Shown here: positions 436 to 61,559 of the stretch, piece after piece
Layout of the letters: the number at the start of each line of letters is the position of its first letter
How positions within the stretch are numbered: position 1 is the stretch's first letter
Assembly: GCF_040183065.1 (NCBI RefSeq)
Contig: NC_091119.1
Location: 199,975,543 to 200,039,542 of the forward strand
Source of the DNA: Periplaneta americana
Lineage: Eukaryota; Arthropoda; Insecta; Blattodea; Blattidae
Direction of reading: 5' to 3'
Length of the DNA: 64,000 nucleotides
Notes under the pieces: model-generated
What the model saw: only the letters and a program-made list of their open reading frames with translations
What the model was told of the DNA's origin: nothing
Databases searched by the model: none
Made by a program: the position numbers and the translations under genes

Positions 436-1434
436 GTCTGTCTCCATACGTGAACTACTTCGCACCTCCATCTATAGCTATAACACAGTATAAGAAGAAT
501 GTTCTCTATACTGTGGCTATAATATTGGAATCTAATCGCATCGTTCAATGGCTTCAAATTAGTGGTTTTTAAATTAAACCTATATGCTATTGAAATACGC
601 CAGATGGATAAAATGATTCATTATTAGATTTTCTATCGATCCTACTGGCAATAATTACCGAATAAAAGGGGGTAAAACATTTGTAGGAATTGCACTTTTT
701 TTTGTTACATACAACATGGGCTAATCGCTCGCTGAAATTTTCATGGTTATTTCACTTCCAATCTGTATAAAATGAGGAGTTCGTATAGTTACCAGGAAAG
801 TAAAATCTGTATGCTTTTGCCATCTGTTGAGATATTGCAAAACTAACTACTGCATTAGACGCACAATGTAAGATATCTCACTTTTGACCAAAATCTCAGT
901 TACCATGTTTTACGCCCGAGCCACTCAAATATTGAAGATAACTTTTTGTCATGTATCACGTTATCATTTCCTGCTTTTTCATCGAAAATCCTGCTTTTTC
1001 AGATAAAAGTCCTGCTTTTTATTTTTTTTCGCCTGGAACCCTAAACCAGGGAGGCTCTCAATTTGTAGATGTGTCTAGTGTCGATTCACAGAAAATATCT
1101 TTCCTCCCTTACACTGCATAGACTTGGAAGTCGATAATATAGGGGAGGTAAAGAAAGTCATTCTCCCCTCCCCGAGTAAGATATCTTATTTCAACAGCGG
1201 CGGAAAACATCTTGAATAATTCTACAAGACGTTTCTGTCTGCCATGACTGAACTGAAGATACCAAGAAATATAGGTGAACTGCCAGAGAGATTGAAATAG
1301 GCCTACGTCACGTATCCAGTATCTTATCTGTAGGCAGACTCATTCCTGATTGCGTAGCTAGGGACGAGAAACAATTGCATTATCACTTATATCAGAAACA
1401 GCACGTGTTAAGTGAGTCCAAATATGTGAGAGAA

Positions 1435-1439
1435 TCAGT
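1435..1439 (+). promoter_or_regulatory. candidate initiator (TCAGT) of gene 1
   Basis: The arthropod initiator consensus TCAGT occurs 48 bases before the start codon and would give a short 5' UTR. No TATA box or clear DPE is seen at the expected distances. A five-base match is weak evidence. Confidence 0.2.
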
Positions 1440-1486
1440 TGCAACGAGATCTTTGAACATGAAGAAACAATAACTAGAAAATCAAC

Positions 1487-1526
1487 ATGGCGTTAACGAA
1501 ACTGGTCTTCCTGTTGGTGTTTGTCG
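1487..1526 (+). CDS. exon 1: start codon and signal peptide
   Basis: ATG at 1487 in the context CAACATGG encodes 13 residues plus one base of the next codon, nearly all a hydrophobic leader. The donor is GGTGAGTC. Too short for an ORF scan; chosen because its phase and leader fit exon 2, which has no start of its own. Confidence 0.75.
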
Positions 1527-57261: not shown

Positions 57262-58090
57262 TCAGCTGCTTGCATATGTGGTTGACGTGAATATGTTAGG
57301 AGAAAATCCACAAACTATTAGGGAAAATACGGGAATTTTACTGGAAGCAAGTAAAGAGATAGGTTTGGAAGTAAATCCCGAAAAGACAAAGTATATGATT
57401 ACGTCTCATGACCAGAATATTGTACGAAATGGAAATATAAAAATTGGAAATTTATCCTTTGAAGAGGTGGAAACATTCAAATATCTTGGAGCAACAGTAA
57501 CAAATATAAATGACACTCAGGAGGAAATTAATGCAGAATAAATATGGGAAATGCCTGTTATTATTCGGTTGAGCAGTTTTTATCATCCAGTCTGCTCTCA
57601 GAAAAGCTGAAAGTTAGAATTTATAGAATATTTATATAGGCTATTACTGGTTCTGTGTGGATGTGAAACTTGGACTCTCATTTTAAGAGAGGAACAGAGG
57701 CTAAGGGTGTTCGAGAATAATGTGCTTAGGAAAATATTTGGGGTTAAGAGGGATGAAGTTACAGGAAAATGGAGAAAGTTACACAACGTATTCTTACCTG
57801 ACATAATTATGAACATTAAATCCAGACGTTTGAGATGGGCAGGGCATGTAGCACGTATGGGCAAATCCAGAAATGCATATAGAGTGTTAGTTGGGAGACC
57901 TGAGGGAGAAAGATCATTTTTCTGGAGGCCGAGACGTAGATGGGAGGATAATATTAAAATGGATTTGAGGGAGGTGGGATATGATGATAGCGAATGGATT
58001 AACCTTGCTCAGGATAGGGACCGATGGCGGGCTTATGTGAGGGCGGCAATGAACCTGCGGGTTTCTTAAAAGCCATTTGTAAGTAAGTAA
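57262..58090 (+). mobile_element. RTE-like LINE 3' fragment with (GTAA)n tail
   Basis: Starts in the RT catalytic block (QLLAYVVDVNMLGEN; family usually has YADD), continues LEVNPEKTKYMITSHDQN and [20 protein letters not shown], has a stop and a disturbed stretch at 57540-57700, then [40 protein letters not shown] to RAAMNLRVS. Confidence 0.85.
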
Positions 58091-58789
58091 TCATAGACCC
58101 ATACTCTCCATTTGTAAACCAAAACAAACTAAAACATTCAAACTGATACACTGTAGTTTCATTTCCGAAACTGGGTAACAAATTCTACATGTTGGTGTAT
58201 TCCTGATTCAGCACAATTTTTTTTATTTACAAAATTTGTTGATACTTCAGAATGCCATAACCTTTATCTTTTCTCTAGGCATTGTTACAGTAAACATACA
58301 ATTTAATTTGAAAATATTCCCTTGCAATTCATGTTCAGTTCTTGTTATTGTTTCCTGATTATTTATATAGGCCTATAACCACTTATCAGTCTTAAAGACA
58401 TATTCATACATTTCAACAGGGAAAAGAACATACTTTTAGAGTTCAAATTTATAGTAATCTGTTGTTGTGAGCTTTTTCGTGAGATATCAACTGTACCGAG
58501 GTGTGAATGCCCCTGAACTCTGATAAGTGTAGTAGGCTTACAGTGTGACAGTACACAGAAGGACTGGAAGCAAGTCCCACTTGTTTTACTTTCTCTTGCC
58601 ACACTCCAAGCACTTTTATCTGCAAGCTACTATCATTATACAGTGAAGCGTCTACTATCATTAACTTGTTGTACAAAACTGTGACGGTAATTGAAACAGC
58701 AACATTGAAATCGTTTTAACTCATGTTGGAGCAAAGCATTTAACTACTTATTATATTTGTTGGTATATTCTGCATATATTATCTGCCAA

Positions 58790-59348
58790 TAGATGCTTTT
58801 ATGGTCTTAGAAGACATATGAAATCTCAAATTATATTTAGGAATACAAAAATTATGATGTATAAAACTCTTATGAGATCTGTACTATCTTACGCATCTGA
58901 GACTTGGCCATTGTAGAAGTCAGATGCGACATTATTATGTACATTTGAAAGAAAGATTCTTAGGCAAATCTTTGGACCAGTTAGAGAAAACGGAACATGG
59001 AGAAGAAGATACAATTTCGAACTGTACAGATTATATAATGAGCCAGACATTGTTAAATTTATAAAAATAAGAAGATTGGATTGGGCCGGGCTTGTTGTGA
59101 GAATGCAAGATGATAGAGTTGCGAAGAGAGTTTTTACATTTATTCCGATGGAAAGAAGGAAGGTTGGTAGACCGAGATTGAGATGGGAAGACTGTGTGAT
59201 GGATGACTGGGTGTTAGAAATTGGAGAAGTTTGGCATTGAATAGGGAGGAATGGCGAAAACTTCTGAAGAAGGCCAGGGCCCATGAAGGGCTGTCGTGCC
59301 ATTGATGATGATGATGATGATGATGATGATGATGATGATGATGATGAT
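58790..59348 (+). mobile_element. third RTE-like LINE family, 3' fragment with (GAT)n tail
   Basis: Encodes MLFRRHMKSQIIFRNTKIMM, SVLSYASETWPL, FERKILRQIFGPVRENGTWR, KIRRLDWAGLVVRMQDDR, RRKVGRPRLRWEDCVMD, with stops, then about 15 GAT units. The tail unit differs from the GTAA and CATT families. Confidence 0.8.
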
Positions 59349-61559
59349 ATTCTCCATATTATATGTAATGAATAGTGACAGGGAAAATATGAAATTTCGT
59401 ATTCGAAACTATTCCTGTTAGTTGTATGGAAACAAGGATTTTCATGATACGCGATGTGTAGAATGAAATTAACGTCATAAAAATTAATATTTAATAATGT
59501 TTAAATAATTTTCGTGTTTCATCAAAAGATTCTTTTTTTTCTCTTACACTGTAGTCTGATTGCTGTAATATGTTACTAGTCAGCGATGTATGTAATGAAG
59601 GGGGAGAGGAACTGGCTACACTACTCCATTATCTCCTGGCTTAGTTGGGTCATGAGTGATGCCTTATTGGTGTCACTTATGAGATTCCAACCTGTCTCCG
59701 GACAGTTGACTAAACAACAACAACAATGTTTTGGAAAAATTTTGATGTTTCATCACAAGATTCGTTTTTTTTTCTTTCATATTTTGCAAGATTTATTCCC
59801 TCTGTTAGTATTCCTATACTACCTTTGAACCAGGCTTTCCAAATACTATCTGAGATTCCGAGTGGCCAGTGAAATCTCCCAATTCCCCTTTAGAGTCATT
59901 GAACTTGTATCGTCAATGAATAAGTGGTTCCTATTTCACCTTTGTTTGTTCTTTCAGATCTATTCAAAGTGTTATCAGTTTTGATATGTAGTGATTTTTT
60001 TTTTTGTTTTGTTTTTTTTTTTTTGCAATTTCATGTAGGCCTACTTTTCATCGTGTAATCTTTTGCTAGCAAATAGCCTATAACTTATAGAGAAGTTACT
60101 TGTTTGTATTGTAATCAATGTTGAGGCCAGCCAATGTAAGAAGTTCCCCTCCCCCCTCTTCAGTATAAAAAATTCAGTTACCTAGTTCTTGCATTGAAGT
60201 AAGGGTTTGATGTTTCTTCTGAAAGACTGTTTCGTTACACAGATTTATTGTATTTATTTGATAGCATATTAAATATTGTCTCTAAAGGCTTATTTTGTAA
60301 ATAATGGTATGAACCTGCACTAAATGGTTTAGGAACAAAAATAATTTAGCATTGAAATACAGTATTTAATTCTTATTTTAAAATGTTGCAAAAGTTTCTT
60401 CATACAATGCCAGTTTTTGAAATTACGATTTGGATGTATCTGCGTTTTTTTAAGAATGAATGCATGGAGTAGAAGATGAACTACTGGTCACTATTAAGAC
60501 GGCATCATACTGATTCAGGTGGTTCAGTGATGGCTCAGAATGTCAGTCGTTCATAGCGAATGAGCATACAGCAACACCCGTGTATTGTTGGCAAGCTTCG
60601 GTCCTTCCAAAGACACCGTCATCACCTCCACTAAATTGAAACAGTAGGTTTGTTCCAACAACAGTTAGTAACCATCTGTAACCATCGTAAGCATGCGCAG
60701 TACAGAAAAGCTATTCCAAAATACTCCACATCAGTTCTGAACCGGAAACATGTACATACTGCAGTCGGACATTCCAACAAACTTTTGACACGGGTTCGGT
60801 ACGATCAGAAGTAGTCAGCGGATTGAGGCATGTACGGAAGAGTTACGTGTCTCGGACATGTGCATACACTCACCAAAGTCTCCTGGATACTGAAGAAAGA
60901 CATGATCGACTGTTCACATCAGTGAGATTAAGATGGAAAGTGACAGTGCAGACGAATAATAAAACTAGAGATTTAATTTAAATTTTCGCCAGAAAGAAAG
61001 ACAATGAAAATTATTTGGGTATTGAAATAGTTAATTACAATTTCAAAATGCAACTTCGAGTAAAAGTATAATAAATAAACTACATAAATGAATAATTAAA
61101 AAAAAAAAAAAACTTTTTTCATTTTAGGTGAAAGAGTCCCTAGTATACGACATCGAATTAGCAGAATTCTTACCTCCCATATTTTTTGTTATCTTTTTTA
61201 TAGAAAATTATCGAAATTCTGTCTTCTGCAACTTGAATTAGCTGCGAAACGATAGTAATTAAGCAGTCCATTGTCAGGCAAAGATGATCACAGTTACAGC
61301 ATCTCTGAATTTAGTACACGGTGACCTGAAAAAGCATTCCAACATCATCCAGTTCTGTTTCAATCCCGTACCAGATACCCAACCAGCGCATGTGCATAAG
61401 ATCATCCATGGTTTACACAGGAACTGATACATACACTGCTTGTTGTAACGAACCTAGAAATGAATCAATGTCTGCAAATAACTTATCGAAATTTTGGAAG
61501 TGGATTATAATCTGCAATTAAGGGGAGAGGCTGGTATTTTTTGGTGGAAAATTAGTAAA

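Follow-up and report, generated by a model that had tools for sequence, protein, structure and literature searches.

An over-represented palindrome inserted at TA in the genome of Periplaneta americana, a probable excision footprint of GG-ended Tc1/mariner transposons

The stretch of DNA considered here, 64,000 nucleotides of contig NC_091119.1 of Periplaneta americana (positions 199,975,543 to 200,039,542 of the forward strand; hereafter the window), carries 13 copies of the palindromic octamer TAGGCCTA and 11 of the heptamer TAGGCTA or its complement TAGCCTA, several of them within repeat copies that include an element pair with a MADF reading frame and a long interspersed nuclear element (LINE). 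The octamer is an insertion at TA, unoccupied homologous sites reading TA, and it is very probably, to judge from the comparison of such copies, the excision footprint of DNA transposons of the Tc1/mariner superfamily ending in 5'-GG(G)...(C)CC-3'. A sequence-only reading of the window had already listed the 13 octamers, all of which lie where it placed them. The sites, together with two repeat copies in the empty form, are as follows.

1298..1305, no strand: TAGGCCTA, presumed GG-type excision scar (word match; no spanning paralogue in the window or in a 288-kb set)
4645..4652, no strand: TAGGCCTA, presumed scar, adjacent to an ATAA simple repeat (spanning matches are simple-repeat sequence)
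5572..5579, no strand: TAGGCCTA, putative scar that breaks a MADF frame by +6 bases with an in-frame TAG (also at 35159)
5932..5939, no strand: TAGGCCTA, second octamer of the element carrying 5572 (also at 34799)
9349..9356, no strand: TAGGCCTA, putative older scar carried by a repeat family (common to copies L010:6010 and L019:9968)
21242..21249, no strand: TAGGCCTA, centre of an inverted-repeat element (absent from the other arm and from the 37.5-kb copy)
34799..34806, no strand: TAGGCCTA, duplicate of 5932 in the inverted copy of the element
35159..35166, no strand: TAGGCCTA, duplicate of 5572 in the inverted copy of the element
41442..41449, no strand: TAGGCCTA, presumed scar (word match only)
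49349..49356, no strand: TAGGCCTA, presumed scar (word match only)
56537..56544, no strand: TAGGCCTA, presumed scar (word match only)
58368..58375, no strand: TAGGCCTA, presumed scar (word match only)
60036..60043, no strand: TAGGCCTA, presumed scar (word match only)
2140..2146, plus: TAGGCTA, possible 5-base GG-type scar (word match only)
3317..3323, minus: TAGGCTA, possible scar (word match only)
21327..21333, plus: TAGGCTA, five bases extra relative to the copy at 37.46 kb (copy comparison)
28921..28927, plus: TAGGCTA, possible scar (word match only)
36102..36108, plus: TAGGCTA, possible scar (word match only)
49218..49224, minus: TAGGCTA, possible scar (word match only)
54665..54671, plus: TAGGCTA, possible scar (word match only)
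55220..55226, minus: TAGGCTA, possible scar (word match only)
56749..56755, plus: TAGGCTA, possible scar (word match only)
57637..57643, plus: TAGGCTA in the 3' open reading frame of the LINE (absent from the 44.4-kb copy and five other aligned copies)
60074..60080, minus: TAGGCTA, possible scar (word match only)
9476..9874, minus: repeat copy, empty form (CTG TA TCTG) of the scar site at L019:9657 (copy comparison)
24084..24375, minus: copy of a CAG-ended element, empty form of the TA with a genome-wide insert spectrum (copy comparison)

About half of the window heptamers are expected by chance. The segments 5288-6289 and 34449-35450 are inverted copies of one element (96% identity, two octamers each), which we take to be Harbinger-like from its GGCCCG ends and MADF start; because the sites 5572/5932 and 35159/34799 sit in these two copies and form a duplicate pair, the octamers of the window amount to 11 independent ones, as the earlier estimate had it. 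In the frame that opens at ATG 5521, the octamer at 5572 contributes two extra codons, a stop among them, and the surrounding block matches the Pfam MADF profile (31.7 bits, cutoff 22; the 39 residues 9-47 on profile positions 1-37), in agreement with the initial description of six extra bases and a stop in a conserved MADF block. At the site corresponding to 9349, a further copy of the repeat family (L010:2544) reads TAGGGCTA instead of TAGGCCTA. The 37.5-kb copy that is empty for 21242 reads GTTAAC, a difference of +5 to +6 by manual reading, the BLAST alignment being ungapped. Finally, the LINE at 57637 has TTATA[TAGGCTA]TTAC where the 44.4-kb copy reads TTATATTAC, and three bases seem to have been lost nearby; the heptamer does add the seven bases first reported for it, but gives no clean +5, TATA preceding it. 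Relatives of the LINE protein were not confirmed in searches of viral and genome contigs.

The abundance of the octamer is far above any random expectation. The 13 copies in the window compare with a mean of 0.62 and a maximum of 3 in 100 dinucleotide shuffles, which bears out the estimate of fewer than one in 64 kb, whereas the heptamers, all 11 of which are present as first reported, compare with 5.25 expected, and 3 of the 100 shuffles reach 11, so that their enrichment in the window alone is weak. In a 264-kb set made up of the window and 200 kb sampled from another contig, TAGGCCTA occurs 40 times (27 of them in the 200-kb part) against 2.0 under an order-2 Markov model, and no other 8-mer made up of all four letters has a higher z-score. 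The genome-wide count that had been proposed as a check, taken over 3,231,669,367 bases in 91 contigs, gives 457,526 octamers against approximately 24,500 expected (order-2 Markov, scaled from the 264 kb), i.e. an approximately 19-fold excess, and 615,663 heptamers on both strands against approximately 231,000 on the same basis. The excess thus comprises about 0.43 million octamers and 0.39 million heptamers, or about 0.82 million words. Chance as the origin of TAGGCCTA is ruled out by the shuffle and Markov expectations. The reversed octamer, with 16,914 genome sites, is a poor control because it contains a CpG.

That the word enters at TA is seen when homologous repeat copies are aligned, and the sequence-only reading was right in suspecting a micro-insertion whose empty allele is TA. 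In an all-against-all comparison of the 288 kb, TAGGCCTA at L019:9657 is matched by TA in three other copies and TAGCCTA at L016:2204 by TA in four; TAGCCTA at L023:4378 and at L023:5151 likewise stands against TA in copies, and at L008:1501 and L010:8796 six bases are missing in related copies. An automatic rule was applied to 324 kb, by which a site with a spanning paralogue passes if the sole gap equals the word length minus 2. Seven of 20 octamers pass, 10 are in common with a copy and 3 differ by substitution only; for the heptamers, the figures are 4, 10 and 2 of 19, with 3 showing another gap. Nine control word sets yield 1 pass in 123, plus 2 ‘mixed’ cases (octamers versus controls, Fisher p 3e-6), and two further control sets are without any spanning paralogue. 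TACAGTA/TACTGTA pass in 3 of 41 cases, with 2 mixed, and TACCGGTA in 1 of 2. A comparison blind to the word finds, between repeat copies, 86 inserts of 4-9 bases; 31 of these are 5-6 bases long, and among the 31 TA-GGC(C)-TA, with 5, is the commonest kind. The alignment of transposable element copies that had been suggested earlier therefore has a divided outcome, the 7 octamers being derived but the 10 being common to copies; the latter, among them 5572/5932 and 9349 in the window, reflect the later multiplication of an element that already bore the scar.

Single TA positions within repeats, two of which were followed genome-wide and were chosen because one fetched copy was scarred there, accommodate a whole spectrum of inserts. 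The first, GGTACTG-TA-TCTG, has 2,569 matches when 0-12 inserted bases are allowed; among the first 100 listed, 98 read TA and 2 read TAGGCCTA, one being L019 itself. A stricter pattern with GG after TA returns 15 copies, namely 6 octamers (L019 included), 5 heptamers, 1 TAGGCCCTA and 3 others. At the second, the TA of the CAG-ended element (any insert of 1-25 bases, taking the first TA inside the pattern), there are 93 short-insert alleles, 88 of them of the form TA-x-TA, a few of these 88 being longer tandem duplications. The inserts include TAGGCCTA (15), TAGGCTA (11), TAGCCTA (9, one being L016 itself), TACAGTA (11), TACTGTA (10) and TATA (4), other words occurring once or twice each. Several footprint variants thus recur at one TA at both sites. 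Since different copies carry an octamer, a heptamer or a nonamer at one and the same base, the events recurred, with the proviso that copies with the same scar may derive from one event. TACAGTA and TACTGTA are the excision words of Sleeping Beauty/mariner and would be the residue of a CAG-ended element cut with a 3-nt overhang.

Other observations concern the same positions. The second-site TA (L016:2204 and its copies) lies approximately 60 bases inside the end of the CAG-ended element, as if the ends of such elements attracted other elements with a TA target. The window also contains, at 31505-32383, an element with terminal inverted repeats (TIRs) ending TACTCG...CGAGTA; TACGAGTA, found in 2 of the 93 alleles at the second site, may be the scar word of its own that this element has. 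A second enriched palindrome, TACCGGTA (108,900 genome-wide against approximately 18,500 expected), has the appearance of a TA insertion in two comparisons (L007:1088 and L011:9092), with no CC-ended donor found.

The source of the inserted bases is suggested by what else occupies the second-site TA. When GG is required after TA and the last letter is A, G or T, 100 places are retrieved (11 with the reversed control pattern), of which 72 are GG scars (43 octamers, 24 heptamers, 4 TAGGTA and 1 nonamer), 7 continue like GGG-ended elements, 13 resemble an unrelated repeat and 8 are others. Two of the 7 were fetched. The element in L041 (1.08 kb) is 92% identical to the one with TIRs at L016:8159-9233; that in L042 (0.9 kb) is a different element, its TA plus inverted repeat matching in 23 of 24 positions; both have the borders GAAG-TA-GGGG...CCCC-TA-CATT. 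One TA site therefore exists in empty, occupied and scarred forms, and the octamer scar is what remains of the occupied site when only two bases at each end are kept. The comparison of copies shows TA to be the target and to be duplicated, flanking inverted repeats whose terminal bases reappear in the scar. Because the insert equals the ends of full-size elements at that TA, the earlier suggestion of a tiny mobile motif is abandoned, and the palindrome is best read as not itself mobile.

Candidate donors, with TIRs and a TA duplication, exist elsewhere. One TIR scan finds 10 TA-flanked candidates starting TAGG, 8 of them TAGGG, and in a second scan 7 of 34 are GG-started, of which 2 had been fetched by their end and 1 is doubtful. 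A scan for sharp repeat borders favours TACAG and TAGGG, the 26 TAGGG border sites including loci fetched by that end. Four TAGGG-ended elements with unlike flanks in 200 kb would scale, very roughly, to 65,000 in the genome, against the approximately 0.82 million excess words. The octamers are flanked by a purine (R) at -1 and A at -3. The donor proteins appear to be fragmentary: the GGG-ended element at L013 encodes a piece of mariner transposase (PF01359, 27.5 bits, cutoff 24), and in the elements at L016:8159, L018 and L026 no open reading frame exceeds 107 aa.

In the favoured scheme, a GG-ended element would insert at TA and duplicate it, giving TA-GGG...CCC-TA; the transposase would then cut two bases inside each 5' end, leaving GG on each flank, and end joining would seal TA-GG-CC-TA, six bases longer than the empty TA. 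The loss or overlap of one base would produce TAGGCTA or TAGCCTA (+5) in about equal numbers, and rarer joins TAGGTA (+4) or TAGGCCCTA (+7). Repetition over evolutionary time would generate the genome-wide excess of both words. That excision is the process is inferred, as are the 2-nt stagger, the way in which the ends were joined and the GG families that contributed most.

Several points weigh against this scheme. The evidence is a comparison of copies. Scars outnumber candidate GG elements at the second-site TA by 72 to 7, about tenfold, and no whole element is found among the 15 first-site copies with GG, a surplus that requires elements to have been excised or lost very often. Among the borders of the random sample, TAGGG falls outside the 14 commonest sharp repeat borders and TACAG inside, the leading borders being AT-rich or simple repeats; the L042 element gives only an HTH_psq match below the curated cutoff; and the octamer flanks resemble, without matching, those of the GGGTAA family, whose ends have R at -1 in 16 of 16 but more T at -2. 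One-mismatch neighbours of TAGGCCTA show no excess (51 against 56.4 expected), which is odd for an old neutral scar and suggests either that most events are recent or that the model expectation is high; some scars are, unlike what recent events only would lead one to expect, common to diverged copies. Moreover, 3-nt overhangs (GGC/CCG) would account equally well for 7-mers being paired with 8-mers and for the enrichment of TACCGGTA, a word for which no CC-ended donor was found.

The last point is the basis of the strongest rival, which we nevertheless consider improbable, namely that the donors ended in GGC...GCC and were cut with 3-nt 3' overhangs. Full overlap, with a central G:G mismatch, would give TAGGCTA/TAGCCTA, and annealing of the self-complementary GC would give TAGGCCTA; this predicts exactly 7- and 8-mers, heptamers in both orientations equally (11 and 9 seen) and TACCGGTA for CCG ends (108,900 sites), and it forbids TACATGTA for CAG ends (6 against 9.7 expected, 0 of 93 at the second site). 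What speaks against it is the donors themselves: a GGC start is found in none of the 10 TAGG candidates from the TIR scan and in none of the 7 GG-started among 34, in samples covering 288-324 kb of 3.23 Gb, and in none of the 7 element-like continuations at the second-site TA. The sharp-border scan gives 6 TAGGC pairs, two of whose sites are the ends of the Harbinger-like element, while the others, on a less than complete inspection, seemed internal or A-rich. Of the 9-mers TAGGNCCTA (49,659 genome sites), 30 listed ones lie outside a satellite array, and 18 of these have G or C as the middle base, against an assumed 0.37; this fits 2-nt GG and 3-nt GGC donors alike.

A transposase acting without a full cycle, through aborted insertion or as a domesticated enzyme nicking TA and leaving GG/CC tails, would explain why scars exceed candidate residents tenfold at one TA and why the other has none in 15; this is very unlikely, since ordinary excision suffices and that TA is occupied, in two copies, by whole elements ending in the same bases. 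Still less credible is a palindrome selected or maintained as a protein-binding or methylation site, in the manner of HIP1 of cyanobacteria: an exact 8-bp palindrome, strongly over-represented and with no excess of decayed neighbours, would suit it, but the octamer arises whole by insertion at TA, beside TACAGTA-type inserts at the same base. It is equally hard to credit that the octamer merely belongs to the interior of abundant repeats and multiplied with them, for the octamers common to a copy (10 of the 20 with a spanning paralogue, such as 5572/5932 and 9349) are offset by the same word at different TAs in unlike repeats and by the 7 of 20 that look like private insertions.

Two further candidates were rejected. 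Interstitial telomeric (TTAGG) insertion, which would place T in front of the octamer and A behind it, is contradicted by T at -1 on 0.21-0.22 of sides against a background of 0.33. PIF/Harbinger elements duplicate a 3-bp target, TWA, whereas the clean empty sites read TA and differ by +6 or +5, i.e. a 2-bp duplication.

Besides the features discussed so far, the window contains a tandem array of a 142-bp unit (45781-46823; 7.3 copies, 97% matches) and very long simple-repeat arrays of the TTTA, CATT and GAAGG types, open in several frames, at 14680-16064, 30149-31230 and 38025-38907. An array with 34-base spacing lies elsewhere in the assembly (G000, contig C1:1478133-1479229), with TAGGTCCTA in most of the units listed.

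If the octamer is indeed the scar of GG-ended Tc1/mariner elements, its count has a use of its own, since excisions are normally invisible and repeat annotation counts residents, while a word count seems to expose excisions by the hundred thousand. Scar counts, such as the 93 short-insert alleles at one TA, hint at how often cut-and-paste elements leave and at how the breaks are joined, and they carry a caution for motif searches, in that an enriched palindrome need not be regulatory. A bolder proposal, to which we give slightly less than even credence, is that excision dominates insertion in GG-ended Tc1/mariner elements, with about ten scars per resident copy, that scars are the main record of their activity, and that scar words (TAGGCCTA, TAGGCTA, TACAGTA, TACCGGTA and TACGAGTA) form a countable fossil archive from which family-by-family excision-to-insertion ratios might be obtained in any genome.

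As regards known systems, Tc1/mariner footprints are put at 2-4 bp (PMC7913693), and ISY100 is described as cutting 2 nt inside the 5' ends (PMC2170065); a 2-nt stagger on GG ends would give exactly TA-GG-CC-TA, although the ends here are GG(G) and the donor transposases fragmentary. Sleeping Beauty and mariner cut 3 nt inside and leave 3-nt overhangs, according to PMC7827188. The present scars resemble their footprints in the TA target and its duplication, in the residue of terminal bases and in end joining, and TACAGTA/TACTGTA occur at the same TA here; they differ in that the residue is GG plus CC (4 nt) or 3 nt of G/C, and in being known from sequence comparison. Stowaway footprints, left by miniature inverted-repeat transposable elements in a beta-amylase intron of Triticeae, were likewise recognized by comparing empty with occupied TA sites, yet at a single locus across species (PMC1925063), whereas here one genome holds several hundred thousand excess scar words. 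HIP1 of cyanobacteria (PMC4390886) is also a short palindrome far above chance genome-wide; the present octamer differs in entering at TA as an insertion and in reading as transposon debris. DNA elements are reported to make up 24.3% of the published assembly of Periplaneta americana (3.23 Gb, 91 scaffolds; PMC12774602), chiefly Tc1-Mariner and hAT. In the literature searched, no description of genome-wide footprint words on this scale was recognized. The kind of cause is ordinary and known; its scale, at about 0.82 million excess words, is unusual.

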